Assembly: GCA_947382625.1 (NCBI GenBank) | Contig: CANDAG010000002.1 | Span: forward strand, 62,001-126,000 | Source: an uncultured Lachnospiraceae bacterium | GTDB lineage: Bacteria; Bacillota; Clostridia; Lachnospirales; Lachnospiraceae | DNA length: 64,000 bases | Direction: 5' to 3' | Part shown: positions 10,278 to 53,484 of the stretch, piece by piece | Layout: every line of letters begins with the position of its first letter | Numbering within the stretch: the first letter of the stretch is position 1 | Notes under the pieces: generated by a model | What the model was told of the DNA's origin: nothing | Databases searched by the model: none | Seen by the model: the letters and a program-made list of their open reading frames with translations, nothing else | Program-made: the position numbers and the translations under genes

Positions 10278-11510
10278 GTGGAATCATTTTTGAAAAACCG
10301 GAAGGACAATGAAAAGGATCAAAACTGGGAGGACTATGAAAAGAACCTGCTGTGCCTCCAGGATGTGATGGACAGGCTTTTGAGCTGTATGAAGGGGCAT
10401 AATGTATCCTTCCGGGCGGAAATCACGGACAGGGACAGAAAATTCAGCCATAAGAAGCTTTGCAGCCTGGTGAAGAAACTCCTGTCCCTCTGGGCAAAGA
10501 AGCAGCAGGAGAGTACCTTTGAGAATCCGGATACCGGTGAGAACCTGGCAAATCCCTATATCGAAGCGAGACGTGAACTGTACGGAAGCTATCTTTACCT
10601 GGTCATGCGGTGTTGTCTGCTTGAGGGGAAGTATACCCTTGTGTGTGGCAGAGAGATGAAGGAGCGGACGGACTTTGCTTTTTTGCTGGAACAGGCGAAG
10701 CGGCTCTTTCGGAGCTGGTGCGTCATGGGAGAGCCTGACGGAAACAAGAAGAACGAGTTGTTCTTTGGCTATGACGATCATTTTGGTTTCCACCTGTACC
10801 GTGTCCTGTCATCGTGTCCCGCCGCCGGGTTTGACAACCTTCTGGTTCCTGAACTGGATTGGCCTGTGCATCATCCTGCCTTTCTGACGGATGAAGGCAG
10901 TGTGAAACGGATTTCCCTTAAAGATATCTATCGGTTCAGCGGCAAAATACCCTGGACAACGGAGGCGTCGCAGCCGGATGCAGACGGCCCTGGCAGGGAT
11001 GACGGCTGTGAGGGAGACAGCCATGAGGAAGATGGCTATGATACCGACAGCTATGACGGCGAAGGCAACTATGAGGGTGAGGAGAGCTATGACGTCGAGG
11101 AGGATTATGACGGCTACGAACCTGAAGAGGATGAGGGCTTTTATGATGTCTGGGAGGAATTGGATGTAGATGCCGAAGCGCAATATGAGGCAACGCGGCA
11201 GATCCTGGAGAAGCAGGAGGGGCTTGGGTACCTGTACGATGACTTCGAATGTCCGGAAGAGTATCTTAAGGCCTGCAGGCTTTTTAAGATGAAATTCCAG
11301 GAGGCAGAGCCGGAGGTGCTGCGAGGGTTCTATGAGGATTTGGAGGAGATCGTGAGCCTGTATCTGGTGGGACGGAATATTCCTCCGCTGACAGATGAGG
11401 ATACGGTCATGGAAATGTACAGCAGTATTTATGACGGACCTTATAGACAGGCAAGGCACTGCGCAAAAAGGGTACAATGTAGGCTTGCGCTTGGAAATGA
11501 ACCGAACTGA
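10278..11510 (+). CDS. Unrecognised protein with acidic Tyr/Asp/Gly-rich segment
   Basis: 410 residues; I do not recognise the family. Residues 1-230 are mixed and look globular, with several Trp, Cys and Tyr (LYLVMRCCLLEGKYTLVCGREM). Residues about 235-300 are a low-complexity acidic tract built from repeats such as DSYDG, GNYEG and EDYDG. A short mixed C-terminal domain follows. No signal peptide or membrane segment is seen. The chosen start is GTG 10278 with a weak upstream GGTGAGAAAAG site, so the exact start is uncertain. It is the first gene of a two-gene unit with the 614-type protein that follows, driven by a promoter that matches that of the clpP-like unit. Confidence 0.7.
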   Translation: MESFLKNRKDNEKDQNWEDYEKNLLCLQDVMDRLLSCMKGHNVSFRAEITDRDRKFSHKKLCSLVKKLLSLWAKKQQESTFENPDTGENLANPYIEARRELYGSYLYLVMRCCLLEGKYTLVCGREMKERTDFAFLLEQAKRLFRSWCVMGEPDGNKKNELFFGYDDHFGFHLYRVLSSCPAAGFDNLLVPELDWPVHHPAFLTDEGSVKRISLKDIYRFSGKIPWTTEASQPDADGPGRDDGCEGDSHEEDGYDTDSYDGEGNYEGEESYDVEEDYDGYEPEEDEGFYDVWEELDVDAEAQYEATRQILEKQEGLGYLYDDFECPEEYLKACRLFKMKFQEAEPEVLRGFYEDLEEIVSLYLVGRNIPPLTDEDTVMEMYSSIYDGPYRQARHCAKRVQCRLALGNEPN

Positions 11511-11536
11511 TACAGGGCGCTATGGGAGGAGGTACA

Positions 11537-13366
11537 ATGGGAATCCGTGAGACTTACTTCGGCGACTTGATCAGGGACTATGAGGATCGGAAGGAAAAAT
11601 CTTTCCTGTACAGAACCTTTTGGGCAGAGAACGTGAAGGATCTGCTGAAGAAATATTTGCCGCCGCTTCCGGGGAAGCGTGAGCTGAATCGACAGATGCG
11701 GGAACTGGACAGACAATTCCTGATGCCTCTGGCGAGCGAAAAGAACGGGCCGGAACAGATGGAGAAATATTTCAGACAGCTTTCGAAAGAGGCGAAGGAA
11801 CTGCTGGAAGTACATTTGCCCCAGCTTCCGGAGGAGGTTGTGAAGCTGCTGCGGAAGCATTCCGAACAACTTCCCAGGGAGGTGAAGGAGCTGTTGGCGG
11901 AAAGCTTCCCCTGGCTTCTGGAGGAGGATGTTTCGTGGCCGGAATATGAAGACAAAATCAAAGAGCTGCTGAAAAAGAATATACGGGAACGTCCGGTGTG
12001 GGGCGATAACGTGCTGCTGCAGAAGCCGCCGAGAAAAGTACCGCGCAAAAAGAAAGACAAGCCGCAGGAAGAAGATGATCCGAAGGGCGAACGCCGTGAT
12101 TTTGGTGCGGAACTGTGGCTCAACGATGCGGGCTATGAAATGGGACGAATCTCGGATACAGGATATTATCTGTGGCTGTCGGAGTATCTGGCAGCCCGTG
12201 GCAGCTATTATAAGGATAACAGCATACGTGATGCGCATGTATGGCTGTATAGGCTGCTGATCAGCGGCCTTGGGATGGAGCCTGAACAATTTCGGAAGAA
12301 TGGAAAAAATATCTGCGGCAAAGCAGAGGTCGAAACATATTTGAAGGAACTGGCAGAAAAAATACGGGAGCCGCAGGAAGCAGAAAAGACAAAGCTGACA
12401 GAGGCGATGCAAAAGCAACGGGAAATAGAAAAGAAGGAAATCGCCGGCCGGCTCCATGGATTATACAGGAAGCGCAATCTGAAAAGCAGGACGGACGGGC
12501 CTGAGAAAGAGGATTATCTGTTATGGCTCACCGAACGGCTGAAGCGGATGTCGGTTCACATCAGGCTCAAGAACTGGCTGCAGGATAATGGGTATCCCCT
12601 TGCGAAGGAGGGCAAGGTTAAGACGCTGTCGCAGAAATGCCGGCAGCAGAATTTTCCTTTGCGGCTGTTTGAGACATTCTGTGACAGTGCGGACGGTTAC
12701 GAGTTCTCGCGGAAAAAAATCGGACTTCAGGCCGGCGAGGACTGGAAAGTGAGCGACGGCTTCTGTGTATGGGAGCCGGATAACTTTGAGGTTCACCTTC
12801 AAACACTTCTGGACGTTTTGAAGCGGAACGACAGGAGAGAGTTTTATTTTCCTCTGGCGTTGGATCTGCGCAGCGGCTGTGTTTTTTTTCTTGCAGGGAA
12901 GGAGTATTATAAATATGTATACGATAAGTGCGGGGACAAGAAACTGAAAAAGAAATATGAAGCAGCAAACCCGCTTTTCTGTTATGACTATTTGCGCCTG
13001 GCCGGGAAGGAAAGCTTTGAGGATGATAGAGTGACATTTGAGCTATATCCTGCTTTCCATGAGAATGCAGGGAAAGAATACGATGAGATATTTAAAGCCT
13101 TCAAAGCATATTGTAAAGGGGAAGGCGTTGAACAATGGAAGACTTTGACCGTAGAAGATGGGGAGGCCGAATGCTATGTTGAAGACGTGGATGATATTCC
13201 CCGGGAGAAGATCAGGGCGCTCAACGACAGCGGACCCATCGGTATTCCTAAAGTATTTAGGTGGGCCTTTGACGGTTTGGAAATGCCGAAGCCGAGCCGA
13301 AAGGCGAAGAACGACCACAAACAGACAGAGAAAAAGATAAACAAAGAACGTTTTCATTTCCGTTAA
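11537..13366 (+). CDS. Unrecognised large protein with leucine-rich helical repeats
   Basis: 609 residues from ATG 11537, which follows AGGAGG with a 4-base gap; an in-frame ATG at 11522 is less likely because it precedes that site. Residues about 35-160 hold imperfect helical repeats around an LLxxxLPxLPxxV pattern (LLKKYLPPLP, LLEVHLPQLP, LLRKHSEQLP, LLAESFPWLL). A basic linker (PPRKVPRKKKDKPQ) separates these from a globular second half of unknown type. The last 25 residues are very Lys-rich. It has no transmembrane helix. It follows the 410-residue protein by 26 bases and ends before a strong hairpin at 13403-13455. No family or function can be assigned. Confidence 0.7.
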   Translation: MGIRETYFGDLIRDYEDRKEKSFLYRTFWAENVKDLLKKYLPPLPGKRELNRQMRELDRQFLMPLASEKNGPEQMEKYFRQLSKEAKELLEVHLPQLPEEVVKLLRKHSEQLPREVKELLAESFPWLLEEDVSWPEYEDKIKELLKKNIRERPVWGDNVLLQKPPRKVPRKKKDKPQEEDDPKGERRDFGAELWLNDAGYEMGRISDTGYYLWLSEYLAARGSYYKDNSIRDAHVWLYRLLISGLGMEPEQFRKNGKNICGKAEVETYLKELAEKIREPQEAEKTKLTEAMQKQREIEKKEIAGRLHGLYRKRNLKSRTDGPEKEDYLLWLTERLKRMSVHIRLKNWLQDNGYPLAKEGKVKTLSQKCRQQNFPLRLFETFCDSADGYEFSRKKIGLQAGEDWKVSDGFCVWEPDNFEVHLQTLLDVLKRNDRREFYFPLALDLRSGCVFFLAGKEYYKYVYDKCGDKKLKKKYEAANPLFCYDYLRLAGKESFEDDRVTFELYPAFHENAGKEYDEIFKAFKAYCKGEGVEQWKTLTVEDGEAECYVEDVDDIPREKIRALNDSGPIGIPKVFRWAFDGLEMPKPSRKAKNDHKQTEKKINKERFHFR

Positions 13367-13402: not shown

Positions 13403-13455
13403 CAAACAGCCTCTCAACTTCCGATTTATGACGGAAGTTGAGAGGCTGTTGTTTG
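13403..13455. terminator. Long perfect hairpin, likely terminator
   Basis: AACAGCCTCTCAACTTCCG pairs without mismatch with the segment starting CGGAAGTTGAGAGG over 19 bp, loop ATTTATGA. The downstream T tract is short (TTGTTTG), so it may act as a terminator or as an mRNA 3'-end stabiliser. It separates the two units that share a promoter type. Confidence 0.6.
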
Positions 13456-13679: not shown

Positions 13680-13733
13680 ATGATAAAGACCACAAAAAAG
13701 GAAGGGGGAACCCGATATGTACCTATCAAATGA
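13680..13733 (+). CDS. 17-codon leader ORF overlapping the clpP-like start
   Basis: ATG 13680 sits behind the strongest ribosome site of the leader (AGGAGG at 13670-13676) and opens a 17-codon frame rich in Lys and Thr that stops with TGA at 13731-13733. It overlaps the start of the clpP-like gene (ATG 13717) in another frame. It may couple or tune translation of that gene. The peptide itself has no recognisable features, so it may only be a ribosome loading device. Confidence 0.4.
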   Translation: MIKTTKKEGGTRYVPIK

Positions 13734-14313
13734 AGCAAGAATCATCAGGGAATCAACCTACGGCTATAACCTTATCCCTATTCAGGATGAGATGTTGTCC
13801 CACCGGGAGGTGGAGCTGGTCGGGGAGGTGAACTCGGATACGGTGAATGCTCTTATCCGTCAGCTGCGCTATCTGCAGCGGGAGGATCCAAAAGCCCCGA
13901 TCACTCTGTACATCAATAGCCCCGGAGGCAGTGTGGACAGCGGCATGGCGCTCTACGACGTAATGCAGGCGATAAGCTGTCCCATCCGGACAGTATGCGT
14001 GGGTCTTGCGGCCTCCATGGCGGCGCTGCTCTTTGTCTCCGGTGCAGAGCGGGATATGTTGCCCCACAGCCGTGTTATGATCCATGATCCGCTGATCGTT
14101 CAGACCGGCGGCAGTGCCCTGAAGCTGAAAGCAGTCAGCGATGACCTGATGGAAACCCGGCAGATCATCGCCAGGGTCATCGCGGAACACTCCGGCAAAA
14201 GCATGGAGGATGTCCTGGCCAGGACTGCCAGCGACAGCTATTTCCGGGCGGAGGAGGCGATCGAATTCGGCCTTGCTGACTGCATTATTACAAGCCTTGC
14301 AGAAGACAAATGA
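13717..14313 (+). CDS. ClpP-like serine peptidase
   Basis: 198 residues, the normal size of ClpP. The oxyanion segment INSPGGSVDSG is at 66-76. The catalytic triad appears intact: Ser100 in GLAASMAAL, His123 in RVMIHDP and Asp173 in TASDSYF, followed by the family ending EEAIEFGLAD. HDP replaces the usual HQP, and the sequence is clearly divergent from housekeeping ClpP. No Clp ATPase is nearby; the next gene is a VirD4/TraG-like P-loop ATPase. ClpP chambers depend on a partner ATPase for substrate delivery, so the neighbour is a candidate partner (inference). GAAGGGGG precedes the ATG. Confidence 0.88.
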   Translation: MYLSNEARIIRESTYGYNLIPIQDEMLSHREVELVGEVNSDTVNALIRQLRYLQREDPKAPITLYINSPGGSVDSGMALYDVMQAISCPIRTVCVGLAASMAALLFVSGAERDMLPHSRVMIHDPLIVQTGGSALKLKAVSDDLMETRQIIARVIAEHSGKSMEDVLARTASDSYFRAEEAIEFGLADCIITSLAEDK

Positions 14314-14403
14314 CTCTGCGGCATACAGATAAGATGTAACGCCTCGGACATTCGTCTCGCGGATGCATGAGAAAATCAACCCTGTTAAGAGGAGGAGAAC
14401 ACT

Positions 14404-15714
14404 ATGTATACTAACGTCAAATCAAAACGTATTCTTGCGAAGGATATCTTCGTCAGCAATGACACCTGGGTCACGGGAATCAACAACAATGACCTGCTTG
14501 TGGGACCAACAGGCGGCGGCAAGACCAGGGGGTATGTGATACCCAATATTCTCCATACCCAGGACAGCCTGATTGTCGCTGATACCAAGGGAAACCTTTG
14601 CAGATTGTACGGGGAGTACCTGGAGAAAAAGGGCTACACGGTCATGCATCTGAACTTCGCGGACGTGGTAAGTACCCCATGGGGCTACAATCCTCTGGCT
14701 TATATCCGGGAATGCCGGGACGCCGAAGCCAATAAGAACGGCGATTACTACAACGAACAGGATATAAAGAGGATAGCCCAGGCTATCTGTCCCTGCCAGG
14801 ATTTAAAAGAACCCTTCTGGGACCAGGCAGCCCGGATGTATCTGGAGGCGATCCTTCTCTTTGTCATGAATCTGCTTCCCCCAAAGCAGCATAACCTGTA
14901 CGAGGCGTTTACCTTCCTTTCGAAGATGGGGACAGAAGATCTGGATAATATAATAGAGGAAGAAATTATTACCCGCCCCGACAGCGCCTTCGCGCGTAAG
15001 ATGCGGATGATCAGACAGAATACAAAGGCTGACAAGATGGACGCCAGCATCAAGGGGATTCTGGCGCAGCACCTGGACGTGGTGGCGTATCCCGGTGTGA
15101 AGCGGATGTTTTCCATGAAAGAGCAGGTGGATCCGGGAGCCTTCCTCAGGGGGAAAACAGCCTTGTTTTTGTCTGTCAGCGACTCTGACCGCAGCCAGGA
15201 TGCTCTGATAAATCTTTTCTATACCCAGGCGCTGCAGTACCTCATGGCCGCTGCGGACAGACAGCCAGACAGCCGTCTCCCGATTCCCGTACGCTTCATC
15301 CTGGATGATTTCAGCACCAATACCGTGATTCCGGATTTTGACAAGATCATCTCCGTAATCCGATCCCGGGAGATTTACGTCAGTGTGATCATTCAGAGCA
15401 TCTCCCAGCTGGAAGGTCTTTATGAGCATGCGAAAGCCCAGACTATTATCAACAACTGTGATCACTGCCTGTACCTGGGCGGGACGGACGCTCAGACGGC
15501 GAGGTACTTTGCCGAGAAGTATAACTGCCAGGTGTCAACGGTCCTGAACCTGCCGTTAGACGCTCTGTTCATCTTCGAACGGGGCAGAGAGCCCAGAAAG
15601 GCCGAAAAGTATGAACTGAACAAGGACACTGCCTATTGCAGAATGACGAAGCTGGAGGGGCAGACAGCGGCAGGAACCGAAGCAGTGTCCGAAAGGAGGT
15701 TATATGAGAAATAG
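14404..15714 (+). CDS. Soluble VirD4/TraG-like P-loop ATPase
   Basis: 436 residues of the FtsK/HerA/VirD4 superfamily. Walker A is GPTGGGKT at 34-41, Walker B is RFILDDFST with Asp301-Asp302, and PFWDQAARMYLEA plus SIIQSISQLEGLY match coupling-protein motifs. The N-terminal membrane helices of true T4SS coupling proteins are absent: the P-loop starts after about 30 residues. No relaxase or mating-pair gene lies nearby. It follows the ClpP-like gene by 90 bases behind AAGAGGAGG and overlaps the next gene by 11 bases. It could be a remnant of a conjugative element, but the intact frame, regulation and neighbours suggest a dedicated cytoplasmic motor, perhaps feeding the ClpP-like chamber. Confidence 0.85.
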   Translation: MYTNVKSKRILAKDIFVSNDTWVTGINNNDLLVGPTGGGKTRGYVIPNILHTQDSLIVADTKGNLCRLYGEYLEKKGYTVMHLNFADVVSTPWGYNPLAYIRECRDAEANKNGDYYNEQDIKRIAQAICPCQDLKEPFWDQAARMYLEAILLFVMNLLPPKQHNLYEAFTFLSKMGTEDLDNIIEEEIITRPDSAFARKMRMIRQNTKADKMDASIKGILAQHLDVVAYPGVKRMFSMKEQVDPGAFLRGKTALFLSVSDSDRSQDALINLFYTQALQYLMAAADRQPDSRLPIPVRFILDDFSTNTVIPDFDKIISVIRSREIYVSVIIQSISQLEGLYEHAKAQTIINNCDHCLYLGGTDAQTARYFAEKYNCQVSTVLNLPLDALFIFERGREPRKAEKYELNKDTAYCRMTKLEGQTAAGTEAVSERRLYEK

Positions 15715-16621
15715 AGACAGAACGCTCCTGACAATGGAAGAGCGTTTGGAACTGGCGGCAAAATCTCAGGCAGTCTCGCCTGAGGCCGCCGCCAAAATGG
15801 TACAGCGGTTTTCTAAGATTCATACAGCCCGTTTTTTATGCGATGAGCCGACCATCAAAGTCATGTATGGACTGACCGGAGAGTTCTGGGACGTACTGGG
15901 GGAGAATTTGTTCTGTTATGAAGGTTTCTGCCATATCTTCCGGCTGGCGATCGAACGTGATGATGATATACTCCGGGAATTCGAGATGTCCGCCGGGGAA
16001 GAGGGTGGCCTTTATCAGCCTGTTTGGGGCGTCAGGATAAATAATGCTCTGGTCCTTCTGGGACTGCTCCTGCTGGATCACGCCAAGGGCGGCACAAAGT
16101 ACAGAGATATTTACCACTGCACGCGGATGAATCTGAAACAATATTTGGATGCCATGGTAGATCTGAGCTTTCGGGAGGACGGAACACTGGACGAAGAACG
16201 GGCGAAGCGCTTCCGGAGCTGGCGTGAGTTATTCCTGAAGGATAACGATGGTTCCCGGCCCTTGAAAGAGGTTCTGACAGACATTCTCAGACGCTATATC
16301 GCCGCCTGGCAGGAGCTTGATCATTTGGACCCCTGCGGCTATTTTTTTACCCGGTCCTGTGAATACCCGGAGGATGTGCCGGACCTTAGCGACAAGAATG
16401 TTGCCTGTAGAACTCTGAGCGGTCAGATTTTTCTTTCGGAACGAGACTATAGGGCCCAGGCCTTGAGAAAGCTGGCCCCAGAATCACCTTCCCGGAATCT
16501 GGGGGAGCCTCCGGAGAAGGGTATCTCCAGGGAGCGGCTCTCCCGGGCCATGCGGGAGATCAATACATCGGTAACGGATCTGTTTATGCTGCTTGTGGAG
16601 CCCTATCTGATGATGGAGTGA
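15704..16621 (+). CDS. Unrecognised protein coupled to the VirD4-like ATPase
   Basis: 305 residues. I do not recognise the family. It is rich in Arg, Glu and Leu, probably mostly helical, without a signal peptide or clear membrane helix; a hydrophobic helix NNALVLLGLLLLDHA lies near residues 110-124. The ATG is within the end of the ATPase gene, behind AAAGGAGG, so the two are co-translated and probably function together. No catalytic motif stands out. It may be an adaptor for the ATPase, which is only a guess from coupling. No clear terminator is seen after it. Confidence 0.7.
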   Translation: MRNRDRTLLTMEERLELAAKSQAVSPEAAAKMVQRFSKIHTARFLCDEPTIKVMYGLTGEFWDVLGENLFCYEGFCHIFRLAIERDDDILREFEMSAGEEGGLYQPVWGVRINNALVLLGLLLLDHAKGGTKYRDIYHCTRMNLKQYLDAMVDLSFREDGTLDEERAKRFRSWRELFLKDNDGSRPLKEVLTDILRRYIAAWQELDHLDPCGYFFTRSCEYPEDVPDLSDKNVACRTLSGQIFLSERDYRAQALRKLAPESPSRNLGEPPEKGISRERLSRAMREINTSVTDLFMLLVEPYLMME

Positions 16622-29562: not shown

Positions 29563-31326
29563 TTAAATGTCTGGATTGTTGCCGATAAGTACTTTTTTTC
29601 CACAGAAAGCAAAACCATATTTGCGGATATGGCTTTCCGGGATTCCCTTTGCAATGAGACCTGCCTGATAATTTTTTTCTGCTATCTGCCGGAGGGCTTC
29701 CTGTACTGTGTCCGCCAATTCCCTTTCGTCCTCATCCTGTACCTTAAATTCCAGAATGATCGCATTATCGTTTGGATTTTTGGGCTCCAGCACATAGGAA
29801 GCGCGCTGATGCGCGCGTAGGTCGTAAGGAATCCTCCCGGCTTCGCCGGGTCCCTCCTTGCGACATGTATCGTACCGGCCAAAACCGCTTTCTCTGTTTG
29901 AAGTAATGATATATCTGTCAGCAAGTTCCACCATCATTCCAAGAACAAAGCCGTGGTAAAAACGTTCAGGCTCTTCTGAAGACGGATTCCTGCCTGTATC
30001 AAAATAACTGAATGTCTGCAGGGCAATTTTATTCATGTAAGAATTCATACCCTTGACATCATCGTCGATCAAGGCCTTCAGAAATGCATGATTGACTATC
30101 TTGCATTTTTCAAACCAGGTACCAATCATGCGCTCAAACATCACACAGACCTCCCGGTTGGTCAGCTTTAATTCGAATTCTGCTTTGCCGCGCAGGATAT
30201 TAAATTCATAATGTACGGTTCGCAGATATCCACTTGCAAGCAGCAGGCTCCAGACGGCGTCATCTCCGGAATCCAGCTGGTCAAATACAATCTGCTCATC
30301 AAGCGAAGTGTAAAAACTCTCTCCCTGTAGCAAGCGTTCCATGATCATTTTGATTTCCGGACTTCCCTCGCGGATCAGCTTTCCGACCAGGCTGTTGCTG
30401 CTGGTATTTGACCAGTAAGTATCGACTTTTTTCTTATCAAGAAAATGTATGATGGACCATGGATTATAGATATCTTTCTTTTCACCAAATGTGAATCCGT
30501 CATACCAGTCTTTTACCAGCTGTTTCCGGTTTGACAATTCGTATTCATCTAATGCTGCAAAGACTTCTTCTTCTGTAAAACCAAAGCAATCTGCATATTT
30601 TTTTGAGGTAGTAGTTCCTACTTCAAGATTATTCAGATCAGAAAAGATGGACTCTTTGCTTACCCTGGTGATTCCTGTCAAAACAGCGCGTTCCAGACAG
30701 GGATTTGTTTTAAAGGAGGAGTTAAACAGACTTCTGATGAAGGATACCATTTCTTCCCAATATCCATTCATATACGCTTCCTGCATTGGGGTATCATATT
30801 CGTCCAGAAGAATAATTACCTTCTTATTATAATAATGATACAAATATTCTGAGAGCATTTTCAGCGATAGAGATGCCATATAGTTTTCCATCTCCGGTGA
30901 TATTTTCAGAAAATCCTCTTTTTCGTTATCATTCAGAGAATCACTTTTAAGCAGAAAGTCAAATCTATTATATACCAGCTGGATAAGCTTACATATTTTT
31001 TTGCGTGCTTCCTGAAAGGTAGTTTCTTTAATATCCGCAAAGCTTAAAAAGATAACCGGATAGGTTCCCTGTAGCTCTCTGTATTTCGAATCCCATATAC
31101 AAAGACCCTGGAATAAATCCTCCCGATTTGCATAGTTGACCGAAAAAAATTTTTCCAGCATACTCATATTCAGGGTTTTGCCAAAACGCCTTGGACGTGT
31201 GATTAAGGTTACACTGTCGCCGCTTCCCCACCATTCCTGTATAAATTTTGTTTTATCTATATAGAAATATCCGTTTTGACGGACTGTCTCAAAATCCTGA
31301 TTCCCAATGCCTATTGGTCTTGCCAT
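29563..31326 (-). CDS. AAA-ATPase fused to PD-(D/E)XK nuclease-like domain, with in-frame insert
   Basis: 587 residues of the AAA-ATPase-like plus PDDEXK_9 architecture common in Clostridia and Bacteroidetes. Walker A is RPRRFGKT at 44-51, Walker B is IILLDEYD near 170. The C-terminal nuclease-like domain has GFGRYD with Asp486 and ILEFKV as the D...ExK pair. Between RYD and YVLEPK, where homologues run on directly, there are 24 extra residues (487-510) coded by a 72-nt palindromic DNA segment. The insert keeps the frame but splits the active-site region. The biological role of these proteins is unknown; mobile-element or defence roles have been suggested. A minus-strand promoter lies at 31386-31414. 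Confidence 0.85.
   Translation of the reverse strand: MARPIGIGNQDFETVRQNGYFYIDKTKFIQEWWGSGDSVTLITRPRRFGKTLNMSMLEKFFSVNYANREDLFQGLCIWDSKYRELQGTYPVIFLSFADIKETTFQEARKKICKLIQLVYNRFDFLLKSDSLNDNEKEDFLKISPEMENYMASLSLKMLSEYLYHYYNKKVIILLDEYDTPMQEAYMNGYWEEMVSFIRSLFNSSFKTNPCLERAVLTGITRVSKESIFSDLNNLEVGTTTSKKYADCFGFTEEEVFAALDEYELSNRKQLVKDWYDGFTFGEKKDIYNPWSIIHFLDKKKVDTYWSNTSSNSLVGKLIREGSPEIKMIMERLLQGESFYTSLDEQIVFDQLDSGDDAVWSLLLASGYLRTVHYEFNILRGKAEFELKLTNREVCVMFERMIGTWFEKCKIVNHAFLKALIDDDVKGMNSYMNKIALQTFSYFDTGRNPSSEEPERFYHGFVLGMMVELADRYIITSNRESGFGRYDTCRKEGPGEAGRIPYDLRAHQRASYVLEPKNPNDNAIILEFKVQDEDERELADTVQEALRQIAEKNYQAGLIAKGIPESHIRKYGFAFCGKKVLIGNNPDI
29797..29868. repeat. 72-nt palindromic insert within the AAA/nuclease gene
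   Basis: Contains three inverted repeats: GCGCGCTGATGCGCGC (29801-29816), GTCGTAAGGA with TCCTTGCGAC (29821-29830 and 29855-29864), and CCCGGCTTCGCCGGG (29836-29850) nested inside. The length is 24 codons. The boundaries were placed by comparing RYD and YVLEPK with the normal family sequence, so they may shift by a codon. Confidence 0.7.
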
Positions 31327-53010: not shown

Positions 53011-53484
53011 ATGGTTGAAGGGACGACCAAAAACGAAAAGGCACGGACAATCAAACTTACAGAAAAAGCGCTGGAGATATTACGGCAGATAAAAACAATT
53101 TACGGAACAAATGATGGTGTAGAGGAGAAGATAGTAAAAACACGCACAGGAAAGCCGAATACAGCAACTAATTTGGAACATAGAATGGCGACAATCTTTA
53201 AGAATGCAGGATTGGCTGAACTGAATGGCGGGTTACATATATTTCGCAGAACCTTTGCCACCAGAATGTATGAGAATAAAGCCAGAGTAAAGGAGATAGC
53301 GGCATACATAGGGGATTTGGAGTCTACTACGGAGCAGTACTATATTGCCGTGCGTAAAAAAATTATAGAAGACGGTGAGGAAAAACAGGTAGTTATGGTT
53401 CCGGCACCGGCGCACCAGAGAAATGAAAGTAAGTGGATGGATGATGAGCCGTATAGAATGCACAGGGGGAGAACATATGTGTGA
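53011..53484 (+). pseudogene. Tyrosine integrase, C-terminal fragment
   Basis: 157 residues in the open frame. Catalytic elements HIFRRTFATRMYE (H-x2-R) and STTEQYYI (nucleophile Tyr region) are present, followed by an unusual tail ending RMHRGRTYV. The N-terminal arm- and core-binding domains and the first catalytic Arg are missing, and the frame begins right after a non-coding stretch. A full integrase has about 380-400 residues, so this is a truncated remnant, presumably of the integrase that used tRNA-Gln. It could still be translated from ATG 53011. Confidence 0.75.

Follow-up and report, generated by a model that had tools for sequence, protein, structure and literature searches.

ClpP is known to work with AAA+ Clp ATPases. 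VirD4 motors are known as the partners of membrane channels, to which these coupling motors pass their substrate during conjugation or secretion. The 20S proteasome with its ATPase ring likewise combines a proteolytic chamber with a ring-shaped motor, the peptidase and motor families being unrelated to those described here. The window analysed in this work, a stretch of 64,000 nucleotides (nt) from an uncultured Lachnospiraceae bacterium (assembly GCA_947382625.1, contig CANDAG010000002.1, positions 62,001 to 126,000), encodes a ClpP followed on the same strand by a VirD4-like ATPase and a third, overlapping gene. The three genes, with protein lengths in amino acids (aa), are as follows:

13717..14313, + strand: dedicated ClpP-type serine peptidase, 198 aa, with the triad Ser100-His123-Asp173 (Pfam, alignments, comparison with 30 housekeeping ClpPs, tree)
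14404..15714, + strand: soluble VirD4/TrwB-fold ATPase, 436 aa, with Walker A GPTGGGKT and Walker B LDDF (Pfam/NCBIfam, AlphaFold2, Foldseek, VIA-align, residues, tree)
15704..16621, + strand: accessory protein of the 'PLEERL' family (a name coined here), 305 aa, predicted all-helical (iterative hidden Markov model search, presence counts, AlphaFold2)

The locus shares with ClpXP, ClpAP and ClpCP the ClpP fold and triad and the presence of a ring-forming type of ATPase beside the peptidase. In contrast to these proteases, an AAA+ partner is not encoded with ClpP, the adjacent ATPase has the VirD4/TrwB fold and belongs to the VirD4/HerA/FtsK lineage, the canonical docking cleft of ClpP is lost, and its HQP, QXT and sensor Arg elements are mostly replaced. 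VirD4, TrwB, TraG, DotL and Cag-beta differ from the window ATPase in their membrane helices, in the motifs LDEF and DPK where the latter's family has LDDF and mostly DTK, and in their partner, which here is ClpP; moreover, no match to PF03432, the only relaxase family searched, was found in the source genome, a draft of 4.18 Mb that is 88% complete. HerA-NurA, HerA-Sir2 and HerA-DUF4297 are similar in that an FtsK-HerA superfamily motor works with an effector enzyme, whereas here the effector is a peptidase and the motor is nearer VirD4 than HerA. Because it departs from the defining features of both the Clp proteases (AAA+ partner, cleft) and the coupling proteins (anchor, relaxase or type IV secretion system (T4SS)), the system is filed under neither class. 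It is real and general, its function is predicted, and no description of a ClpP-VirD4 pairing was found in the literature searched. The reading to which we incline, with a confidence slightly better than even, is that these genes specify a dedicated ATP-dependent protease whose motor is of the coupling-protein (VirD4/TrwB) type and not an AAA+ Clp ATPase. That it represents a class of ATP-dependent protease not described before, in which an anchor-less coupling motor has a ClpP outlet and its own substrate-recruiting proteins, is about as likely as not.

The window ClpP matches Pfam CLP_protease with an E-value of 1.2e-51 and has the intact triad read in the original prediction. The three residues are invariant across the first 40 paired ClpPs aligned, and among 111 paired ClpPs the catalytic Ser and His are present in every protein and the Asp in 109. 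The window protein does not reach the NCBI curated cut-off of any listed ClpP model (174.5 against 228 bits, for example). A phage head-maturation protease was considered and rejected: scores of 95.5 and 96.8 bits fall short of the cut-offs (120 and 475) of the two such models, and the Clp model scores higher, though also below its cut-off; in the viral scan 77 stretches fit a pattern, one of which encodes a relative of the ATPase.

The divergence of the paired ClpPs is prominent in the apical cleft. Residues 48, 82 and 112 (E. coli numbering) are taken by us to form the hydrophobic H site, where the IGF loops of the Clp ATPases dock. These positions and the sensor elements were compared, at the level of sequence only, between 111 paired ClpPs (near-copies included) and 30 housekeeping ClpPs. 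Residue 82 is aromatic in 30/30 housekeeping proteins and in 0/111 paired ones; residue 48 is Leu in 29/30 of the former and Arg in 68/111 of the latter; residue 112 is hydrophobic in 29/30 and Asp or Glu in 74/111. The canonical pattern at all three positions jointly is found in 29/30 housekeeping ClpPs and in none of the 111 paired ones. Similarly, the sensor Arg preceding the catalytic Asp, the HQP Gln and the QXT Gln are each present in all 30 housekeeping ClpPs, against 9/111, 4/111 (Asp or Glu in 107) and 0/111 of the paired proteins, respectively. The H sites are described as the ATPase docking sites on ClpP, and sensor, HQP and QXT as a network stabilising the active tetradecamer, in a review (PMC9035409). 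From the rebuilt cleft and the replaced sensor network we infer that the usual service of the paired ClpP by ClpX, ClpA or ClpC is unlikely. All 30 genomes also hold a ClpP that is 67-100% identical to the housekeeping reference (L038:2406-2990), which adjoins a clpX-like open reading frame (ORF) recognised by eye. A tree of 131 sequences places the 101 paired and the 30 housekeeping ClpPs on either side of a single branch (support 100/100, length 1.03). The separate clade, the lost docking cleft and the co-divergence with the ATPase described below give good support to the original view that this ClpP is a dedicated one.

The window ATPase matches Pfam T4SS-DNA_transf (E 7.3e-45) and carries the two Walker B acidic residues at Asp301-Asp302. 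Its AlphaFold2 model, with a pLDDT (predicted local distance difference test) of 91.4, displays a complete predicted motor fold of TrwB/VirD4 type, as assigned by Foldseek and VIA-align. The earlier description of a VirD4-type P-loop ATPase devoid of membrane helices is borne out, the best 19-residue hydropathy being 1.25, below the threshold. The same holds for its family: membrane-helix-like hydropathy is found in 3/116 short ATPases against 20/24 long proteins, and residue 302 is Asp in 115/116 short ATPases against Glu in 24/24 long TraG-like proteins, giving the short LDDF in place of TraG's LDEF. Across the short family the Walker A Lys and many other positions of the core show little or no variation, and in the ATPase tree the short LDDF proteins and the long proteins lie on opposite sides of one branch. 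Shortness alone was rejected as a family mark, since 17 TraG-like loci have frames of 318-534 aa and none has a ClpP; LDEF or MDEF is present in 14 of these frames and no motif was found by pattern in three.

The pairing of the two genes was examined from both sides. Among 98 genomes, comprising the source genome and its relatives, the ATPase query gave eight matches with frames below 500 aa and a match extending past residue 400, the other matches being mostly TraGs of about 600 aa; a ClpP adjoins the ATPase at all eight loci, the window included. A profile of the eight, run against 397 same-family genomes, recovered at least 37 places in 33 genomes (E 1.7e-91 or better, frames of 387-536 aa), beyond which are TraG-like proteins, mostly longer, and two further genomes with a short ATPase (G123 and G153) were recognised later. 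At 41 of the 42 loci read, a same-strand ClpP is adjacent or nearly so, L102 being the exception; the ClpP of L096 is cut by the contig end and about 540 nt lie between ClpP and ATPase at L090. Apart from these two genes, every gene family is limited to at most 7 of the 42 loci, and the pair remains constant while the rest of the neighbourhood changes. A phylum sample of 398 genomes added at least five short ATPases in four genomes (E 3.7e-125 or better), each with its ClpP; in both profile searches at most four candidates were scored per genome, so that per-genome counts are lower bounds. A scan of named genomes, with the best 80 of 259 relatives kept, contributed 79 loci from Lachnospiraceae, Oscillospiraceae, other Clostridia, Slackia and three Bifidobacterium species, and the viral scan contributed one.

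Many of these loci come from metagenome bins and many are related to one another. Over the whole collection a same-strand ClpP lies within 2.5 kb at 113/122 loci, or 108/117 once five duplicates, named-genome loci on the same contigs as other loci, are removed. In contrast, ClpP (E 1e-5) is found at 0/64 TraG-like control loci, made up of 47 other-TraG loci (mostly 1.5 kb either side) and the 17 short-frame ones (up to about 3 kb). A neighbouring ClpP is thus no general feature of VirD4-like genes, and the co-occurrence anticipated by the original prediction is found. ClpP comes first at 101 of the 108 paired loci and the ATPase at 7; in the ClpP-first arrangement the median gap is 3 nt and the genes overlap in 44/101, with starts and gaps approximate because the ORFs were called by a simple script. 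The source genome itself holds a second ClpP-ATPase pair elsewhere, whose ATPase is 47% identical to that of the window, and the window pairing is therefore more than chance.

When the search starts from ClpP the same loci are obtained. A paired-ClpP profile run on the 98 genomes has as its eight top matches (236-282 bits) precisely the eight ATPase loci; all others score 229 bits or less. In the 397 genomes, with at most eight candidates per genome, all 36 ClpPs of at least 234 bits adjoin a short ATPase; the profile was trained on 35 of these 36, 35 had already been read, and the sole new one, in G153, adjoins an ATPase with FDDF. A housekeeping-ClpP query of 30 genomes revealed 37 further ClpPs of at most 52% identity, 35 of which coincide with ATPase loci. 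Over 27 genomes with one pair each, the distances of paired ClpP and ATPase correlate with r 0.80, a value that none of 5000 permutations reached (highest 0.33), against r 0.09 for housekeeping ClpP and ATPase in the same genomes, which 412/5000 permutations equalled or exceeded. The partial correlation of paired ClpP and ATPase is 0.80. The two genes diverge together beyond the species relationship, which speaks against frequent partner exchange.

The third gene overlaps the ATPase gene by 11 nt and its product has no Pfam, NCBIfam or fold match, in agreement with the coupled protein of no known family first described; the AlphaFold2 model (pLDDT 75.7) is predicted all-helical. A plain protein search of the 98 genomes hit only the protein itself, yet its treatment as an orphan was rejected: a profile grown from small ORFs located 5' of ClpP at other loci converged on 126 ORFs that include it. 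At least one PLEERL protein lies within 3 kb on the same strand at 86/122 loci (81/117 without duplicates), a presence count that is not independent of the profile, which was grown on the same ORF set, and one match only among 7075 ORFs falls elsewhere. The family takes several forms, comprising one protein or two, each of about 100-140 aa, ahead of ClpP, larger single proteins, and proteins of about 300-420 aa after the ATPase, the window type. The third gene is a recurring component of the system. This recurrence, like the two upstream genes specific to the window subtype that are listed below, was not seen in the original prediction. Several PLEERL-less loci have an XRE-type regulator upstream, and two others have small, weakly YbjN/CesT-like neighbours (L038:8829-9404 and L080:4353-4940), a type linked by Pfam to peptide-binding chaperones.

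In the mechanism proposed for this protease, a soluble VirD4/TrwB-type hexamer would act on the specialised ClpP barrel. The membrane helices of the coupling motor would have been lost and ClpP would take the place of the channel, so that selected polypeptides would be threaded through the motor and into the ClpP chamber. The feeding of polypeptide into ClpP by the motor is plausible; the hexameric state, the physical docking, the direction of threading and polypeptide as the substrate are all conjectural. The helical accessory proteins, ORF3 here and one or two small paralogues elsewhere, may recruit or present the substrate, a role suggested because small auxiliary proteins recruit substrate in coupling complexes (PMC12857230).

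Several observations weigh against this mechanism. The Walker B Asp in place of Glu could imply slow hydrolysis, and no IGF-type loop was seen by eye in the ATPase. Two of the paired ClpPs, L139 and L176, have the catalytic Asp replaced by Ala and Asn with Ser and His kept, and two of the 37 divergent ClpPs are located off ATPase loci (G217:C17, and G113:C48 at a contig edge). Co-divergence would also be expected from joint inheritance of an operon. Furthermore, 9/117 loci have no ClpP within 2.5 kb (L102, L156, L183, L186, L191, L200, L201, L204 and L207). At L156 and L201 the ATPase is partial and lies at a contig end or on a short contig, and the genomes of L191 and L200 have, by ClpP profile search, a specialised ClpP beside a second short ATPase. 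By the same search the genomes of L207, L102 and the three Bifidobacterium loci contain no ClpP above 226 bits; the last are L183, L186 and L204 from Bifidobacterium saguini, colobi and catulorum, which carry the same ATPase family in Actinomycetota, with a PLEERL protein at 2/3 loci despite the missing ClpP. The ATPase therefore also occurs without a specialised ClpP, which counts against an obligate pair. At L200:7998-10952 a short ATPase with no adjoining ClpP continues at its C-terminal end into a DHH-DHHA1 phosphoesterase (DHH E 3.8e-13, DHHA1 E 1.9e-7), a fusion of 984 aa that hints at another output; in view of this fusion and of the ClpP-less ATPases, the motor may serve other outputs as well. 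At L191:155-9278 (G866:C11) two short ATPases lie about 7 kb apart on one contig and only one adjoins the specialised ClpP.

Of the other explanations, the one that survives best, although we consider it rather unlikely, takes the ATPase as a HerA-like antiphage translocase or sensor of DNA or nucleoprotein that would switch on ClpP as its effector, proteolysis being the response. Type III CRISPR, BrxA, Drt2 and methyltransferase genes are present near some loci; since a control of random regions from the same genomes also returned defence matches, including Cas12f, Csx1 and ShosA, with a tool that reports families and not proteins, enrichment in defence genes is not established. Nor do the window proteins match PADLOC, except for the ATPase with the generic mad8 of the MADS defence system (a weak E of 2.9e-6), which a random-region protein also matched, and the rebuilt apical cleft of ClpP fits direct docking. 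Less probable still is that the ATPase acts as a regulator or assembly factor that holds or opens ClpP without threading, peptides or loosely folded proteins entering unaided. The nearly universal Walker B Asp could then reflect a slow, switch-like ATPase, and replacement of the oligomerisation sensor could make ClpP activation dependent on its partner; against this improbable role stand the near-invariant Walker A Lys and core residues and the completeness of the predicted motor fold. An origin of the pair as a decayed remnant or a passenger of a conjugative element, with a correct conjugal VirD4 annotation, is largely contradicted and very improbable: the 264.9 bits by which the window ATPase passes the curated cut-off of 250 of the NCBIfam CD1115 conjugal family, and one RepL (plasmid) and four DnaB matches among 125 neighbour proteins (in the 25 of 78 families listed), are outweighed by the two-sided ATPase tree, residue 302, the hydropathy, the ClpP-free controls, the varying contexts around a constant pair, the absence of PF03432 and the collections of phages and plasmids. 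In the latter all matches to the ATPase are below 60% identical, and among those listed (15 of 28 phage and 15 of 24 plasmid records) identity does not exceed 32.6%; of the 15 plasmid matches, 13 are annotated as conjugal VirD4. No close relative is thus found in these collections, and on this point the reading of the locus as something other than conjugative stands.

If the protease reading is correct, this ClpP would be the first, to our knowledge, whose motor does not belong to the AAA+ Clp family, and the sort of machinery used elsewhere to export relaxases and effectors would here destroy chosen proteins. From the conserved, co-diverging pair it would follow that Clp and coupling systems can exchange ring motors and outlets, and the pair would offer a natural way to test whether coupling proteins unfold polypeptides and thread them. 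It would also call for the re-annotation of proteins accepted by the CD1115 model, an acceptance seen here for the window protein only. The occurrence of the pairing in many gut bacteria and the joint divergence of the two genes suggest an undescribed ATP-driven protein-destroying machine.

The original statement that no Clp ATPase, relaxase or conjugation gene is located nearby holds as far as examined. The three Clp-type ATPases (PF10431) of the source genome are all on contigs other than that of the pair, one of them being a 423-aa open frame on contig C11 about 1 kb from a housekeeping-type ClpP. The ORFs around the pair match, by Pfam, DUF1848, sugar ABC transport, LacI and two-component regulators and glycoside hydrolases. 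Among the 25 of 48 families listed for 32 further window ORFs there is no relaxase or T4SS family, and one of these ORFs matches plain AAA (PF00004). A predicted AAA-ATPase with a PD-(D/E)XK nuclease domain (Pfam) is encoded at 29563-31326, about 13 kb from the system, and a short ORF resembling a tyrosine recombinase fragment by eye is at 53011-53484, about 37 kb away. Elsewhere in the collection, L094, L095 and L097 share a nearby RAMP-type CRISPR-like protein family, and at L097 a large WYL protein adjoins ClpP as well.

Upstream of the pair the window contains three further features:

10278..11510, + strand: acidic protein of 410 aa, isoelectric point (pI) 4.55, partner of the 614-aa gene and, like its product, without a recognised family (homologues by pair, close relatives only)
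11522..13366, + strand: basic protein of 614 aa, pI 8.48, of no recognised family (homologues by pair, close relatives only)
13405..13450, + strand: 19-pair hairpin, a possible terminator with a weak T tail, between the upstream two genes and ClpP-ATPase-ORF3 (scan)

Both companion genes have homologues at 16/26 close loci, and at 12/16 where at least 5 kb is available on both sides, located upstream, downstream or on the opposite strand; none was found at the other loci of the 122. In the window subtype the two genes travel with the pair. The scan gave 4 terminator-like sites against a shuffle mean of 3.2, and only the stem length of the hairpin stands out.

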